DNA of 38,351 nt from positions 1-38,351 of the IMG/VR virus record IMGVR_UViG_3300043639_000058; one strand, written 5' to 3'. The stretch comes from a virus. Shown here one piece after another: positions 3,905 to 37,212 of the stretch. Below the pieces are notes generated by a model, which did not search any database, was not told the DNA's origin, and saw only the letters and a program-made list of their open reading frames with translations. A program made the position numbers and the translations under genes. How positions within the stretch are numbered: position 1 is the stretch's first letter; each line of letters opens with the position of its first letter.

Positions 3905-4602
3905 CAGCGCACCGGGTCGTCCACGTAATAAATCTCCACGCCGGGAATCGACCCGGAGCCCTTCATCGCTCGCGCATACGCGCCAATCTTTTTCTCGTCG
4001 GGTGTCAGGAACTCGCGCGGCAGAAGTTTCATCGCGCGCGCGATCCCGCCCGCGTATCGCCACAGCCAGCGTCGGGTGAACTTCAGCCCGCTCACCTGTC
4101 GCGTGACATCGGGCAAGGCCACGACCGGCGCCGGCGTGGTGATGGCTTCCTCGAGCACCGCCGTCGCGAGCTCGCGCTCGCCTGCCCGCTCCAGTGCCGC
4201 CGCTTCGTGCGCGGCCGCGGCATCACGCTCACGCCGTTGCTGGTCGGCGGCGACCCGTTCGGCCTCCAGGCGGATGCGGTCCTGTTCGGCCTTGAAGACG
4301 GAGATGGCCTCGCGTTTCGCTCGGTCCAGTTGCAGCAGCGGTCCGAGGATTTCATTCTCGCGATCACAGAGCGCCTTGTGCAGCCGATGCGCCATCGTCT
4401 TCAGCGGCGTGAAGAAATCGGCCACGCGCTTCGTCGCCGCCCCAAGCTCCTGCCGGTCGTGGACGGCGCGTTCGAGTTCGTCCATCGACGTGACCCGACA
4501 ATCCGCCAGCATCAGGGCCAGTGCGGACGTCGAGACTGCCAGCTCGCCGCCGACACTGTTCGCCGTTTCCGGCCGCATGACGTCGAGGGCTGGTGCGCTC
4601 AT
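3904..4602 (-). CDS. Long coiled-coil phage protein of the recombination region, 232 aa
   Basis: The N-terminal 60 residues are mixed, followed by a long charged helix at about 65-155 (FKAEQDRIRLEAERVAADQ and neighbours) that should form a coiled coil. A folded C-terminal domain (about 165-232) contains LKFTRRWLWRYAGG and ends in MKGSGSIPGVEIYYVDDPVR. This layout occurs in phage proteins near RecT/exonuclease modules; its biochemical job is not known to me. ATG at 4602 overlaps the methyltransferase stop as ATGA, with a GGGAGG element about 12 bases upstream. Confidence 0.78.
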   Translation of the reverse strand: MSAPALDVMRPETANSVGGELAVSTSALALMLADCRVTSMDELERAVHDRQELGAATKRVADFFTPLKTMAHRLHKALCDRENEILGPLLQLDRAKREAISVFKAEQDRIRLEAERVAADQQRRERDAAAAHEAAALERAGERELATAVLEEAITTPAPVVALPDVTRQVSGLKFTRRWLWRYAGGIARAMKLLPREFLTPDEKKIGAYARAMKGSGSIPGVEIYYVDDPVR

Positions 4603-5573
4603 AAGTTGCCTACGTCCTCCCGATCGACGCGCGCCCACACATCGCCCAATGCGGCAAAGCAGTCGCAAAATTCCCGCACGTCCTCACCGAGGAAGAACAC
4701 CGCCGAGGGAAACGGTGCCGGGTCCTCGTTGCCGATGAACGTCAACCGGCCGGTGATGAAGCAGCAGTAGTACTCGCGCAGACGTTGAAACCATTGCGTG
4801 TCGGTCCGCGCAGGCAGGAGCGCGATCGCCTCGACGACCTTGCCGGTCGTGTACTCGGCGACGAGCTTCGCCACCCAGTCGTCGATCTCGCGGCCATACG
4901 GCGGGTTCATGTAGACGCGACCGGCCCACGGACGCGTCAGGCCGTTATCGCGGATGGTGAAGTGCGCGGCCGCTGGCACGTTCGGCTCGCCTTCGTTGCT
5001 GCAAGGGTCGAGGTCAATTTCGCCGAGGCAGTCGATCGCGGCGGCGATCACCACCTGCGGCGTGTAGTGTTCGGGCGTCTCTGACGCGTGATGGACGGCC
5101 ATCTTGGACGGCCGCAATACATCCGTCGTGACGCGCTCGCCATCGTGCGCCGCCCGATCGCGCCAGGACGATACCAGCGACTCAAACTTCGGAGCCGGGA
5201 CCGCTGCCAGCGAACGCGCCCGATCGGCCAGATGTTTGTCGATGCCAGCATCAGCCAATGTGGGTCGAGCATCGGGACGAACTTTGACCCGATGCTGATT
5301 ACTTCCCGGCGGCTTGGCGAGTCCGACCCCTTGACGTTGTTCTGCGATCAACTCACCCACTCGCCGCTCTGCCCGGATGCGGATTTCGGCCGCATCGATC
5401 TCCAGTTGGCGATTCTTCGCCTGCTTCGCATAGGCGCGCAGCATCACCGCTTGATTGCGGATACGGCGCACCTCGTCGGTCGTGCGTGCGCGGCTCAGGG
5501 CCCGGCACGCCGCCGCATAGACGACTAGCTTGGGGTCGTCACGATTGCTAATTTGTCGACGCGCAAGGCCCAC
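4599..5573 (-). CDS. Phage DNA N6-adenine methyltransferase, 324 aa
   Basis: The C-terminal two-thirds match the phage Dam-like N6-adenine methyltransferase family: HHASETPEHYTP at about 161-172, DLDPCSN at 187-193 and the catalytic NPPY at 223-226. It would transfer a methyl group from S-adenosylmethionine to adenine in DNA, protecting phage DNA or altering regulation. Residues 1-85 form a separate helical, charged domain (CRALSRARTTDEVRRIRNQA) often found at the start of phage proteins. GTG at 5573 was chosen because GGAGGAG lies eight bases upstream; it overlaps the end of the upstream nuclease gene by 49 bases. Confidence 0.9.
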   Translation of the reverse strand: MGLARRQISNRDDPKLVVYAAACRALSRARTTDEVRRIRNQAVMLRAYAKQAKNRQLEIDAAEIRIRAERRVGELIAEQRQGVGLAKPPGSNQHRVKVRPDARPTLADAGIDKHLADRARSLAAVPAPKFESLVSSWRDRAAHDGERVTTDVLRPSKMAVHHASETPEHYTPQVVIAAAIDCLGEIDLDPCSNEGEPNVPAAAHFTIRDNGLTRPWAGRVYMNPPYGREIDDWVAKLVAEYTTGKVVEAIALLPARTDTQWFQRLREYYCCFITGRLTFIGNEDPAPFPSAVFFLGEDVREFCDCFAALGDVWARVDREDVGNL

Positions 5574-5947
5574 GAGATGAACTCCTCCAATGTGTAAACG
5601 CCGACGAGCTGCTGCCCGTCGCAATGCATCCGCAACCACGCGAGCGCGCCTGGCCGACAGCCGCCGCCATGCACCACCACCATCGCGGGCAGCGGGTACT
5701 GCCGATAAATGTTCTCGACGAGAAACGGGAACTTCTCATCGATCGAGCCGCCCACGTCCTGCCATTTCGACTCGACCGCGATGCCGCGCGGAAAGGCCAC
5801 GATGTTCCGAAGCACGAAATCGACGCGTAAGTTCGTGCCGTAGATCGTTTCGCCGAGCACGCACTGCCGCTCGAAGGTGATGCCGATGCTCCGAAGGGTC
5901 GCCGCCAGCATGTCCTCGGCGAATTGCCCGGACTGATTCGCCTTCAT
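5525..5947 (-). CDS. PD-(D/E)XK nuclease-like protein, 140 aa
   Basis: A compact single-domain protein with the PD-(D/E)XK pattern intact: an N-terminal helix (QFAEDMLAATLRSIG), Asp43 in RVDFVLRN, and Glu59-Ser-Lys61 in AVESKWQ. These are the residues that bind metal and cut DNA in this superfamily. The conserved continuation GGSIDEKFPFLVENI follows the strand as in restriction-type and Vsr-like nuclease folds. It starts in an ATGA overlap with the RecB-like gene. A DNA end-processing or structure-specific nuclease role is inferred. Confidence 0.82.
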   Translation of the reverse strand: MKANQSGQFAEDMLAATLRSIGITFERQCVLGETIYGTNLRVDFVLRNIVAFPRGIAVESKWQDVGGSIDEKFPFLVENIYRQYPLPAMVVVHGGGCRPGALAWLRMHCDGQQLVGVYTLEEFISWALRVDKLAIVTTPS

Positions 5948-32631: not shown

Positions 32632-32976
32632 GTGCTGATCTTCATCAAGGGCCCCTATCTCGCACAGATTGTCGACGGCTCGAAGACGTCGACGATCCGC
32701 CCGTGGAAGACGTGCAAACTCCTACCGGGTGGGTCGTTGACGTTTAACGGCAAGGTGCGTGTGGTCCTGACGCACGTCGATCGCCGTCGACTCGGCGACC
32801 TGACCGACCTCGACGCACGACGTGACGGCTTCGTGTCCGTCGCCGCCTTCCGCCGCGCCTTCCGCCAGCACTATCCCACCGTCACCGCCGACTCCTCCGT
32901 CGTCGTCTTGCGCTTCGCCTCGCCGTCCCACAAGGCAAGGGCGCAGGCGCGATCCCGCCACGGCTCCCCGACATAA
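32632..32976 (+). CDS. ASCH-domain-like protein, 114 aa
   Basis: The start LIFIKGPYLAQIVDGSKTST followed by IRPWKTC fits the ASCH fold (K.pY...I..G.KT.T.R). ASCH proteins bind RNA or modified nucleotides in translation and nucleotide metabolism. The C-terminal 30 residues are basic and low-complexity and overlap the end of the convergent ABC-GNAT gene by 106 bases. GTG at 32632 is the start, three bases after the previous stop. Confidence 0.77.
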   Translation: MLIFIKGPYLAQIVDGSKTSTIRPWKTCKLLPGGSLTFNGKVRVVLTHVDRRRLGDLTDLDARRDGFVSVAAFRRAFRQHYPTVTADSSVVVLRFASPSHKARAQARSRHGSPT

Positions 32977-34049
32977 CGAAACGTCGCGGTCAATCGGAAC
33001 TCCCGAGGGAATCGAACCCTTCGGGCGTTGCCTTTGGGCCCCCGACTTTGCGGCGCGTTGAAGCCGGGACGTCGGGTCATCTCCCACGATCGCGAGCGCG
33101 CACGGGCGGCGATGAACGCCGGGTGGCTCGTCGTGCTGTAGTAGTCGCCGCCGGTCGCCGCGTTGACGACGGCCGCCACCAGCGCCGATTGCGCCATCCC
33201 GATCCCGACCCCCTGAAACTCTGGCAGACAGACCGTCCGATGTTCGCGCCACCGCCCCTTGAAGCCGGTGACCGGCAGCACCGCGGTGAAGCCGACCGGC
33301 ACGTCGTGCCAGGTGGTGAGGAAACACCGGGCGCTGTGGTTCACGGTGCCACTCAGATAGTGATGGTCACGGAAGCGGGGCCACTGCGTGTCGTCGGTGC
33401 GCGCGATCCGAATCTCGATGGCGGGGCGGGCTTGAAGTTCCCTCCAGTGGAACGTCCGCAGGTGCGGCGCGTACACCCAGTCCGGTTGCAGCCACGGCTC
33501 GACGTCTTCGTGACAGGTGACGGCGACGAACTGCTGCCCGTCCCGGCGCACCGTCTTCGCCAGCGCCGCCGACCCAATCTGCGCGACACGACGATCGACC
33601 ACGGACGTGAACTCGTCGAACACGGTCACCCGCTTGCCTGCTTCCGCCAGTGCGCGCGCGAGCGTGACCCTGAACTGTTCGCCGGTCGACAACACGTGGA
33701 AGGGCCGCAGCCAGCCCGGTGGCGACGAGAAGCCGACCGAGGACAGCAGCGCCGTGATGGTCTTGATCGACATGCCGGTCGGGAAGCCGTCCACGAGGGC
33801 ACGGCCCGCCGGCCAATCGAAGCCGGTCACCAGCTCGGTGCCGAACAGCTCGCGGGCGATCGACGACTTGCCCGACCCCGAGGGGCCGACGATTAAGCCG
33901 ACCGACCACGGACGGTCCTCGATCGGCAGGTCGACGTCCCACACCAGCGGCGCGCGCGCGCTCGGCGGCAGGTCGAAGTACCCCTCCAACTGCACGACAC
34001 GCGGCGACCGGGGGACGTTCGACGTTCTTACGACACGACCGCGCGGCAT
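32871..34049 (-). CDS. ABC-type ATPase fused to a GNAT acetyltransferase domain, 392 aa
   Basis: The N-terminal ABC ATPase has Walker A GPSGSGKS (55-62), signature LSTGEQ (120-125), Walker B VTVFDEF with Asp145-Glu146, and the switch histidine His180. From about 205 a GNAT-like acyltransferase follows, with YLSGTVNHSARCFLTTWHDV and the acyl-CoA loop LPEFQGVGIG (275-284). There is no membrane domain, so it is not a transporter. It could modify DNA or protein; Mu Mom, which modifies adenine, also has a GNAT fold. The C-terminus overlaps the ASCH-like gene. ATG 34049 has a GAGGGG site. Confidence 0.87.
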   Translation of the reverse strand: MPRGRVVRTSNVPRSPRVVQLEGYFDLPPSARAPLVWDVDLPIEDRPWSVGLIVGPSGSGKSSIARELFGTELVTGFDWPAGRALVDGFPTGMSIKTITALLSSVGFSSPPGWLRPFHVLSTGEQFRVTLARALAEAGKRVTVFDEFTSVVDRRVAQIGSAALAKTVRRDGQQFVAVTCHEDVEPWLQPDWVYAPHLRTFHWRELQARPAIEIRIARTDDTQWPRFRDHHYLSGTVNHSARCFLTTWHDVPVGFTAVLPVTGFKGRWREHRTVCLPEFQGVGIGMAQSALVAAVVNAATGGDYYSTTSHPAFIAARARSRSWEMTRRPGFNAPQSRGPKGNARRVRFPREFRLTATFRYVGEPWRDRACALALWDGEAKRKTTTEESAVTVG

Positions 34050-34732
34050 ACCAGCCCCTCTCCCATCAGGCGCGTGAGGAGTTTCGCCTGCGCGTCCTCG
34101 TCGTCGCACGTGATGATGATCACCCACTGCGAACTGCCGCCGGTCACGCCGACCGGCCTGGTGCCCGGCGGCGCCAGCAGCGCCTCGAGCTCCTGGTCGA
34201 AAAAAAACGGCGTCAGGTCGGCACCCGCCGCGAGGTCGGCCTGCAACTGCGTCAGGTTCCACTCCGCGAGTTCGGCGGTGCGGTTGTCGTACATCGCCAG
34301 TTGCCGCTTCTGGTCAGGCGTCAGCCCGGTACGGCGAACGGCGACGAGGGTGTTGCCGTCGGTCTCGACGACGTGGAGCTTGGTGATGCCGACTTGCGCG
34401 GCGGCCGCGAGCACCCCGTTGCCCGCCAGCACCTCGTTCGACTCGTCGATGACGATCGAGCGCGCGGCTCCCACGTGTGACAGGGCGGTGGCGAGCATGT
34501 CGACGTTGCGCGCCGGGTGACTGCGCCGGTTGTGCGGGTCTGTCACGAGGTCGGCCGTCGTCGGCTCGGCCGTGCGCGGCGCGTCTGACGGGTCGAGGGA
34601 AACGAGGGGGGGAGGAGATACAGACCCACGCGCTCGGGCCCCGGTCGCGCCCTGCGCAACGCTAGACGGCCCCTTGCCTGTTCCTCGTGCGTGAGTCGAC
34701 TTCCGACGTCTTTTGGGTTTGGGCTGAGCCAT
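34028..34732 (-). CDS. ParB/sulfiredoxin-fold protein, 234 aa
   Basis: After a basic, Pro-rich leader (about 1-60), residues 62-170 show the ParB-like fold: DPHNRRSHPARNVDMLATAL, AARSIVIDESNEVLAGNGVL, then AQVGITKLHVVETDG and VRRTGLTPDQKRQLAMYDN. Such domains are found in partition proteins, nucleases and DNA-modification operons. The C-terminal domain with QWVIIITCDDEDAQAKLLTR is ferredoxin-like. It overlaps the ABC-GNAT start by 22 bases, so the two likely act together. Confidence 0.84.
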   Translation of the reverse strand: MAQPKPKRRRKSTHARGTGKGPSSVAQGATGARARGSVSPPPLVSLDPSDAPRTAEPTTADLVTDPHNRRSHPARNVDMLATALSHVGAARSIVIDESNEVLAGNGVLAAAAQVGITKLHVVETDGNTLVAVRRTGLTPDQKRQLAMYDNRTAELAEWNLTQLQADLAAGADLTPFFFDQELEALLAPPGTRPVGVTGGSSQWVIIITCDDEDAQAKLLTRLMGEGLVCRAVVS

Positions 34733-34834: not shown

Positions 34835-35293
34835 CTATCCCCCTGTCGGTCGTTTCCGCCGTCGCCGGTCGTCGCCGCCGATCGCCGCCGAGTTCGGCAT
34901 CGGATTCCATTCCGAATCCGCCGCGAGGTCGGCGGCAGGTGCAGCAACAACACGTCGAGTCGTCGACGACGACAGTTGCTCCCCTCGGGTCTTGCGCGCA
35001 TGGCAAGCGTGACACAACGCCTGCAAGTTCTCGACGTTCCAAAAGAGCAGCGGCTCCCCACCATGTGGGATGCGGTGGTCAACGTCCGTTGTCCGGCGCG
35101 GCAGCCCGCGCTCATGGCACGGTGGGCACCAGGCGGTGGCCGCCAGTACCTTGGCGCGAAGGGCACGCCATCGTGTCGACCGATACCACCGCCGGACCTT
35201 CCAGTTCTCGCGGTCCCGTTCCTTCGGTTCGTGTCGGACGCAGTAGCCACGCACGACGACGGCGGGACAGCCCGGTCGGGCGCAGGGTTGCAT
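34835..35293 (-). CDS. HNH endonuclease with zinc-binding cysteines, 152 aa
   Basis: The HNH core is at about 70-102: TDVDHRIPHGGEPLLFWNV with Asp72-His73, Asn89 in ENLQALCHAC and His98 with KT. Cys56/Cys59 and Cys94/Cys97 bind structural zinc. HK97-type phages often use such an enzyme with terminase for cos cleavage, but here it lies far from the terminase, next to the integrase and attP. Start ATG 35293 has no clear ribosome binding site. The last 40 residues are basic and disordered. Confidence 0.86.
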   Translation of the reverse strand: MQPCARPGCPAVVVRGYCVRHEPKERDRENWKVRRWYRSTRWRALRAKVLAATAWCPPCHERGLPRRTTDVDHRIPHGGEPLLFWNVENLQALCHACHARKTRGEQLSSSTTRRVVAAPAADLAADSEWNPMPNSAAIGGDDRRRRKRPTGG

Positions 35294-35575: not shown

Positions 35576-36964
35576 CTACTTACCGCCTTCCGCAGTCCGC
35601 GCACCCGCGAGGACACCACCGCGATGTGGTGTCTTTGTGGTGTCCTTGCGACCGGTTTGCGACGGGCGCTGCTTCCACCCGAGCGCGTCGGCGAGGCGGG
35701 TCGTGAGGTCCTGCGTGTCGGCGAGCTGGAGATACCGCTGGGTCGTCTGCAACGTCGAGTGACCGAGCAAGAGCTGAATCGTGCGCAGGTCGAGCCCCTG
35801 CTCCCACCAGCGAGACGCACACTCACGACGCAGGTCCCGTAACGACAGGTCGATCGCCTTGATGCCTTCGGCCTTGTAGGCGAGGGTGACGAGGACATCG
35901 TCGGGGGCCGGGAGCCAGCCGTGTGCCGTCAGGTTCACGGTCACCCAGGCGTGCCGGAAGTTGGCGGCGCTGGCCTTGTTCGCGTCGAGGGCGGTCCCGT
36001 CGTCGTTGCCGAAGGCGAAGTTATGCGGGAACTTCAGAAACCGGCGGGGGCGGATGACGAGGTCGAGGGCCCCGCCCGGCTCGAACGGGACATACCGCTT
36101 GTCCTGCCCTTTCGCCTTCTGCTTTCCTTTCGGCAGACCGATGAGGCAGTTGGCCCAGTCAATCTCGGTCGTCCGCACCCGGCACAGTTCGCTCTGCCGC
36201 AGCCCGCACTCGATGACCCCTCGCACGACCCGCTCCATGACCGCCTTGCGGTAACGGTGCTGCTTGTCGTCGAGCACGTCGAGCGCCGTGATGAGCGCGT
36301 CCTCCTCGCCGTCGTGCAGGCGGCGGGTGCGCGGCTCCTCCTCGCTCGTCTTGATGACCATGCCGTAGGCGTGGAAGGGGGACCGCGTCAGACGCGCGGG
36401 CTTCTGGCCCTGCGCCCACTCGACGACGTTGCGCCACCGGGTCAACAGGCGATTGACCGCGATGACCCCTCGCCCCTCGCCCGGTGCCGCGTCGAGGTCA
36501 GGTTTCCAGCCTGCGCGCAACGCGAGGGCATATTCCGCCACGCGGCTTTCGTCCTCGAGCAGCGCCACCGGATCGGCATCACTGAAGAACCCGCGCAGGT
36601 GCTTCAGTTCCGACCGAGGGGTCGCCGTCTGTCGCAACGCCGGGAGCCGCGCGCCCGTGTAGTCGTCGAGGAGCTGCTTGATGGTGTCGACGACGACGAC
36701 CGCCGGGGCCGGCGGCGGCAGCCGGGGGTCGCCACCCGCCTTCGCGAGGTCGACCATCGCCTGCTCCCAGCGATCGGCATCGCGCTTCTCCTTGACGTGC
36801 GCCGGTCCCCCGCGCGTCACCGCGAAGTCGTCCACCCGGATGACGTACCGGGTCGTGAGGCCGGATATCTTCGGTTTGACCTTGAACCGGGCGACATACG
36901 AGTGGGCGCAACGGTGGTTGGCGTAGGCGCAGCCGCGCGCGCCGCATTCTTTCGAGACGCTCAT
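35576..36964 (-). CDS. int: Tyrosine recombinase integrase, 462 aa
   Basis: The catalytic domain (about 215-420) has Arg256 (GLRQSEL), a second box RDLRRE with Arg379, His402 (LLLGHST) and the nucleophile Tyr411 (TTQRYLQ). In the second box the usual His of HxLR is Arg376, a variation found in some phages. The N-terminal 60-180 is the core-binding domain, preceded by a short Cys/His-rich arm-binding-like region (KECGARGCAYANHRCAH). It inserts phage DNA at a tRNA gene. The last codons carry the right-hand arm repeats. ATG 36964 overlaps the excisionase-like stop as ATGA. Confidence 0.93.
   Translation of the reverse strand: MSVSKECGARGCAYANHRCAHSYVARFKVKPKISGLTTRYVIRVDDFAVTRGGPAHVKEKRDADRWEQAMVDLAKAGGDPRLPPPAPAVVVVDTIKQLLDDYTGARLPALRQTATPRSELKHLRGFFSDADPVALLEDESRVAEYALALRAGWKPDLDAAPGEGRGVIAVNRLLTRWRNVVEWAQGQKPARLTRSPFHAYGMVIKTSEEEPRTRRLHDGEEDALITALDVLDDKQHRYRKAVMERVVRGVIECGLRQSELCRVRTTEIDWANCLIGLPKGKQKAKGQDKRYVPFEPGGALDLVIRPRRFLKFPHNFAFGNDDGTALDANKASAANFRHAWVTVNLTAHGWLPAPDDVLVTLAYKAEGIKAIDLSLRDLRRECASRWWEQGLDLRTIQLLLGHSTLQTTQRYLQLADTQDLTTRLADALGWKQRPSQTGRKDTTKTPHRGGVLAGARTAEGGK
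35611..35646. repeat. Right att-flanking repeats at the integrase 3' end
   Basis: The 23-base segment 35624-35646 repeats 35343-35365 with a single T/C change and contains two GTGGTGTC units. An inverted copy GGACACCAC sits at 35611-35619. These lie within the last codons of the integrase gene, about 60 bases right of the tRNA-like core. Confidence 0.75.
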
Positions 36965-37212
36965 CGACGCACCGCCCGCACGCTGGCGGCGGCCGGTAAC
37001 GGCTGCTCGTCGGTCCGTCCGCCTGCGTCCATCCACTTCATCAACTCGGACCGCTTGATGCGGATGCCGCGGCCGGTGCCGAAGCGTTGCACCACCAGGT
37101 GGCCGTTCATGTAGGCACGGCGGATGGTGTGGAGTCCGACGTTGGCTTCGCGCGCCGCTTGGTCGGTCGTGAGGCGCGGGTCCGGGTTGTCGGGTAGTGG
37201 CTGCTCGCTCAT
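36961..37212 (-). CDS. xis: Excisionase-like MerR-type helix-turn-helix protein, 83 aa
   Basis: ATG at 37212 follows a GGGAG site. The winged-helix motif LTTDQAAREANVGLHTIRRA with a later GRGIRIKRSELMKWMD is the HTH_17/excisionase pattern. The stop overlaps the integrase ATG by four bases, a normal xis-int arrangement. It may bind the GTGRNTGTCC repeats just upstream and control excision and int expression. Confidence 0.85.
   Translation of the reverse strand: MSEQPLPDNPDPRLTTDQAAREANVGLHTIRRAYMNGHLVVQRFGTGRGIRIKRSELMKWMDAGGRTDEQPLPAAASVRAVRR

Follow-up and report, generated by a model that had tools for sequence, protein, structure and literature searches.

What does a phage do with a ParB-fold gene that overlaps a gene fusing a soluble ABC ATPase to a GNAT acyltransferase? 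The pair lies in a 38,351-base IMG/VR virus record (the window, i.e., the whole stretch that we analysed), in which we identified integrase, terminase, portal and Dam genes. The original prediction had placed the two overlapping genes at 32871-34732, had noted an adenine methyltransferase in the same genome, and had proposed acyl modification of phage DNA. Both module genes were verified at these coordinates in the window sequence and by profile matches, as was the methyltransferase.

4599-5639, minus strand: Dam adenine methyltransferase gene (PF05869, E 9e-14)
32632-32976, plus strand: ASCH-domain gene, 114 aa (Pfam ASCH, E 3.5e-9), tail-to-tail with the ABC-GNAT gene, the 3' ends overlapping
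32871-34049, minus strand: ABC-ATPase–GNAT fusion gene, 392 aa from the ATG at 34049 (PHROG_11143, E 5e-97, residues 7-363)
32964-33434, minus strand: its GNAT acyltransferase domain, residues 206-362 (domain model pLDDT 91.2)
33438-34049, minus strand: its soluble ABC ATPase domain, residues 1-204
34028-34049, minus strand: 22-nt overlap of the parB stop and the ABC-GNAT start
34028-34732, minus strand: ParB/Srx-like gene, 234 aa (PHROG_620 ParB-like, E 3e-19)
34031-34132, minus strand: C-terminal tail domain of the ParB-like protein, SQWVIIITCDDEDAQAKLLTRLMGEGLVCRAVVS
34835-35293, minus strand: HNH endonuclease gene
35576-37036, minus strand: tyrosine integrase gene

The HNH endonuclease and integrase genes lie directly upstream of the ParB gene, and the phage looks temperate. 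The deposited genomes of Gordonia phages (L305, for example) begin with ParB, then ABC-GNAT and, one gene on, terminase; many IMG/VR contigs likewise start no more than about 700 bases from the module.

Codon-position GC favours coding of the module genes, and the reality of the ParB/ABC-GNAT pair is far beyond chance. The open reading frame listing starts the ABC-GNAT gene at a GTG (34262); we adopted the ATG at 34049, since the 22-nt overlap that it creates is the commonest arrangement among relatives (62 loci), recurring in Streptococcus, Oenococcus and Lactococcus phages. From its layout, this overlap would couple translation of ABC-GNAT to that of parB.

All ABC motifs are intact in the window protein (Walker A GPSGSGKS at residues 55-62, signature LSTGE at 120-124, Walker B DE at 145-146, and H180), its ABC_tran match exceeds the Pfam cut-off, and Foldseek recognized the N-terminal domain as an ABC nucleotide-binding domain fold. 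Because Walker A, LSxG, the Walker B DE, D152, R153, C179 and H180 are fully or almost fully conserved among 118 relatives, we regard the protein as a complete, soluble ABC ATPase. Its GNAT match is below the Pfam threshold (E 0.009), and 109 of the 118 relatives match the GNAT families Acetyltransf_1 and _7. The C-terminal domain carries HHYL (229-232) and LPEFQGVGIG (275-284), with an invariant HY and the QGxGIG acyl-CoA loop (models pLDDT 91-92; AlphaFold2 model of the full 392 aa, pLDDT 91.6, pTM 0.87). The boundary between the two domains is confirmed by Streptococcus, Oenococcus and Lactococcus phages, where they are separate adjacent genes.

Structure prediction had been proposed as a check on whether the GNAT domain resembles that of phage Mu Mom or other GNATs, and it gave a generic answer. 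The structural neighbours (RimI, Naa50, SpeG, EctA, PaiA and others) align at 7-16% identity with TM 0.5-0.7, and in a viral library the protein of Leptospira phage LE4, which belongs to the same family, matches best. Searches of the PDB by sequence and by fold, tried as a route to a functional subfamily, likewise returned generic GNATs only. Phage Rac acetylates RNA polymerase, and the presence of the protein acetyltransferases RimI and Naa50 among the best matches would suit a GNAT that acetylates a host protein, with the ParB and ABC parts serving delivery or regulation. We consider this quite unlikely: SpeG, EctA and PaiA match equally well so that no protein-acetylating subfamily stands out, and both the replacement by Mom and the linkage to PanD and CoA-transferase described below would be left unexplained.

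The fusion belongs to one huge phage and prophage family, PHROG_11143, unnamed and without assigned function in PHROG. A tblastn search found it in 81 phage records, 44 of them covering at least 80% of the protein and some holding the ABC part only, with hosts ranging over Gordonia, Streptococcus, Leptospira, Aeromonas and Porphyromonas. Iyer et al. (2013) predicted DNA-base acyl modification for an ABC-ATPase–GNAT family, a prediction restated in 2021 in the passages of PMC7824862 available to us, which call the family uncharacterized; yet it is widespread, with at least 596 relatives among at least 600 IMG/VR pattern matches and 311 matches in species-level bacterial genomes (GTDB), the best 80 of these 311 being rich in planctomycetes and Nonomuraea, in addition to the 81 phage records. 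The homologue in Tenacibaculum phage pT24 (82% of the window protein aligned, 36% identity, E 1e-52) was found by tblastn and is placed by phage rather than by the accession cited in PMC7824862. Since pT24 holds this homologue, and the window protein has a complete ABC ATPase fused to a GNAT like other PHROG_11143 members, in which the two are fused or coupled, the window system is a member of the previously predicted kind, and the idea of DNA acyl modification is not new. The literature searched yielded no experiment on any ABC-GNAT member, and the passages found on the Leptospira phages LE3 and LE4, which carry the family, held no DNA-modification data.

The partner protein has its ParB fold at about residues 60-180; residues 1-55 are without counterpart in the nearest relative, and the ParB of relative L002 aligns from residue 61 at 64% identity. 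It matches no Pfam or NCBIfam ParB family, and a short tail domain follows the fold, which sets it apart from canonical ParB of ParABS systems, with its DNA-binding HTH and dimerisation domain. Relatives have been automatically annotated as ParB partition proteins or ABC iron transporters, so one might see here a partition or ordinary transport module that carries a GNAT by chance. This is hardly credible and already contradicted by gene content: besides the lack of an NCBIfam ParB match, there is no permease among the scanned neighbours (ParB, HNH, integrase, ASCH and others), the C-terminal fusion is a GNAT, and the ABC part is fused or adjacent to a GNAT throughout. The original prediction that the pair is neither transporter nor ordinary partition system was thus borne out.

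ParB lies directly upstream in 154 of the 168 ABC-GNAT loci with enough upstream sequence, and all 108 nonredundant ABC-GNAT ParBs end in the short tail domain (consensus FEVLVECEDEAEQVELLERLTAEGLKCRALIS). For comparison we used 80 loci of one Mom clade, where ParB is adjacent in 69 of the 73 with upstream sequence and ends in a zinc ribbon. The tail was present in 156 of 158 ABC-GNAT ParBs vs. 0 of 75 Mom ParBs, by a profile trained on the ABC-GNAT set, and the CxxC of the zinc ribbon, a count independent of that training, in 0 of 158 vs. 75 of 75. When 50,697 phage records were searched for the tail consensus, there were 13 matches, every one beside ABC-GNAT. In P. gingivalis prophages and Pseudomonas phage Komp_PAO1_1 the tail stands alone, as a 42- or 49-aa protein before ABC-GNAT; because these phages keep only the tail, it is the tail rather than the ParB fold that looks like the obligatory partner.

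The two tail-less exceptions are of a plasmid or phage-plasmid type that lacks the GNAT, in Pseudomonas phage phiK7B1 (L017) and an Acinetobacter plasmid (L018). In these and in many of about 895 plasmid records, the genes after a GNAT-less ParB-ABC pair with tail-less ParB encode a small protein (thioredoxin-like in L018) and then a phrog_886 protein of ~300 aa; the common ParB-ABC core may drive another effector there.

The box-II motif of the window ParB reads GNGVL and is without the arginine required for nucleotide binding in tested ParB-like proteins (PMC12704722); roughly one in four relatives, of either kind, likewise has no clear box-II arginine. Phage ParB-like proteins paired with or fused to DNA methyltransferases (fusions are described in PMC12704722) offer a parallel, in that a ParB fold is tied to a base-modifying enzyme, and PHROG_498 matches the window ParB (E 9e-19). 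The window system differs in that its effector would be an acyltransferase with its own ABC ATPase.

How the module relates to Mom is best seen where one takes the place of the other. Arthrobacter phages EastWest (ABC-GNAT) and Martha (Mom) have the same gene order around the module, with identities of 65% for gp73/gp68, 80% for gp78/gp72, 45% for the sliding clamp and 55% for ParB over its N-terminal 132 aa. Two P. gingivalis prophages, 006a and 012a, share tail genes at 97% and 76% identity; what follows these genes is Mom in one prophage but ABC-GNAT with a formyltransferase in its counterpart. In Microbacterium phage Appa, ParB overlaps Mom. Since there are two independent swaps, one of them beside the same kind of partner, a shared role of Mom and ABC-GNAT is supported. 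Aeromonas phage PX29 (GU396103 / NC_023688) encodes both, a Mom homologue at 36309-36881 and an ABC-GNAT at 53239-54288, so the two are not simply redundant.

This probable common role does not extend to evident kinship. The original prediction took the GNAT fold to be that of Mu Mom: the GNAT fold itself was upheld by AlphaFold and Foldseek, without any specific resemblance to Mom. Profile comparison by hhalign was rejected as a ground for homology (E 0.15, probability 0.4%), and we do not claim membership; Pfam Mom (PF25680) was matched weakly by 1 of the 118 members (E 0.009). Mom and ABC-GNAT share the GNAT superfamily, an upstream ParB and the slot in Arthrobacter and P. gingivalis phages. 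Mom differs in having no ABC domain, in having the motif SFAD..G..Y.A.N and no QGxGIG acyl-CoA loop, and in a ParB partner whose C-terminus is a zinc ribbon, not the tail domain.

Which acyl group might be transferred is suggested, for some relatives, by neighbouring genes. Gordonia/Rhodococcus phage Jace has in one run ParB, ABC-GNAT, an aspartate 1-decarboxylase (PanD; PF02261, E 2e-33) and a short member of CoA-transferase family III, and six further loci have PanD and CoA-transferase downstream of ABC-GNAT or, in the case of L137, within the same locus. An independent viral search with a PanD alignment returned 33 contigs, 18 of them nonredundant: 10 had ABC-GNAT upstream and CoA-transferase III downstream, and the other 8 had neither. 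Viral PanD keeps the residues of the cleavage site and the active site (G23-S24, K8, Y21, R53, T56, Y57 and N69). A simple reading is a route from aspartate to beta-alanine, to beta-alanyl-CoA and to an acylated base. PanZ (PanM) is a GNAT that matures PanD, and the PanD-linked GNATs might act likewise, in a cluster for beta-alanine/CoA metabolism rather than DNA modification; we think this very improbable, as most ABC-GNAT loci are without PanD and the CoA-transferase is always present as linked gene.

Directly downstream of ABC-GNAT, 8 of 9 phage records of the P. gingivalis type and 10 Gordonia phages encode a formyltransferase (PF00551). Gut and Pseudomonas phages also have this gene after ABC-GNAT, and four human-gut records have a distant version (22-26% identity). 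Used as bait in IMG/VR, the formyltransferase had ABC-GNAT in 4 of 4 loci. Conversely, none occurred in the IMG/VR and GTDB ABC-GNAT loci searched, so the association is confined to few lineages. Such an enzyme could formylate a free aminoacyl amine. Next to the window module PanD, CoA-transferase and formyltransferase are all absent, and the acyl group used there is therefore not indicated. Two further neighbours were considered as functional clues and set aside as too few or uninformative: a gene for a PIG-L family deacetylase, convergent with ABC-GNAT, at four planctomycete loci, and a ~145-aa family (motif like GSGLMLAIMD; no Pfam or PHROG match) in eight loci, mostly directly downstream.

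The ASCH gene is the neighbour that the window does have. An ASCH gene lies just downstream in 20 of 105 nonredundant ABC-GNAT loci, convergently in 19 of the 20, vs. 2 of 84 loci over a comparable distance on the upstream side (Fisher P = 4e-4) and 0 of 70 Mom loci (P = 3e-5); these counts are lower bounds, detection having been iterated with our own profiles and not by Pfam on every open reading frame. The association recurs in Streptococcus, Oenococcus and Pasteurella phages (the last by our own profile, not Pfam). YqfB, an ASCH amidohydrolase with active-site residues Lys21, Thr24, Arg26 and Glu74 (PMC6972931), hydrolyses N4-acylcytosines and ac4dC. Like YqfB-type enzymes, the window ASCH has the GxKTxTIR motif, its GSKTSTIR matching K21, T24 and R26 in alignment; beyond this motif there is no reliable YqfB alignment at Glu74, and PDB matches are weak and to other ASCH-like proteins only. 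It would differ from YqfB in that its substrate would belong to the phage module. That it reads or removes an acyl mark is a reasonable hypothesis.

TmcA is also an ATPase-GNAT fusion. By that analogy the module could instead have RNA as its substrate, leaving an ac4C-like mark on tRNA, or else nucleotides of the pool; its ATPase would then work as the helicase part does in TmcA, and the ASCH protein would be the matching N4-acylcytidine amidohydrolase, a reading that the recurrent ASCH gene and the K/T/R residues of the window ASCH would fit. ASCH proteins do often act on RNA or free nucleosides, which also counts against a DNA substrate. We nonetheless judge it unlikely, because the pairing with ParB and the exchange for Mom both speak for DNA, the YqfB threonine is missing from most linked ASCH proteins, which are of the ENR type, and GNAT_acetyltr_2 (the TmcA type) was matched weakly, by 2 of 118 members.

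We thus return to acylation of a base in phage DNA, which we hold to be probable, if by no great measure, for the ParB–ABC-GNAT module; it is favoured by the ParB pairing, the slot shared with Mom, the tail specificity, the links to PanD/CoA-transferase, formyltransferase and ASCH genes, and the prior prediction. The GNAT domain would take an acyl group from a CoA thioester and place it on an exocyclic amine of a DNA base, and in some relatives this group is probably aminoacyl, with beta-alanyl and N-formyl variants. The fused ATPase may serve as an ATP-driven clamp, engaging or scanning DNA and acting as a gate for the transferase. The ParB-like protein would bind DNA and/or nucleotide and recruit the enzyme by its dedicated tail, although members that have the tail by itself show that the ParB fold can be dispensed with. 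Modified DNA would be shielded from host nucleases, as by Mom in phage Mu, and the ASCH protein might act on the acylated base or nucleotide. Of the original prediction, acyl modification of phage DNA is accordingly the best-supported function, through Mom replacement and the accessory genes; sequence kinship with Mom, and adenine as the base modified by analogy with Mom, found no support.

More tentatively, and on balance doubtfully, ABC-GNAT may constitute a separate class of DNA hypermodification, beta-alanyl with PanD/CoA-transferase and N-formylated aminoacyl with formyltransferase, in which the portable ParB tail is an adaptor that the enzyme cannot do without and the mark is read or removed by ASCH proteins. 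Relative to PMC7824862, whose available passages make no mention of the ParB tail, Mom replacement, or the PanD/CoA-transferase, formyltransferase and ASCH links, the new content is the tail, the replacement by Mom and the acyl-supply genes. Through the PanD/CoA-transferase and formyltransferase links, the loose notion of an 'acyl modification' becomes a set of definite masses (beta-alanyl, formyl-aminoacyl) that can be sought in named cultured phages, and the enzyme-specific tail provides a direct handle on the role of the ParB-like proteins that stand beside phage DNA-modification enzymes.
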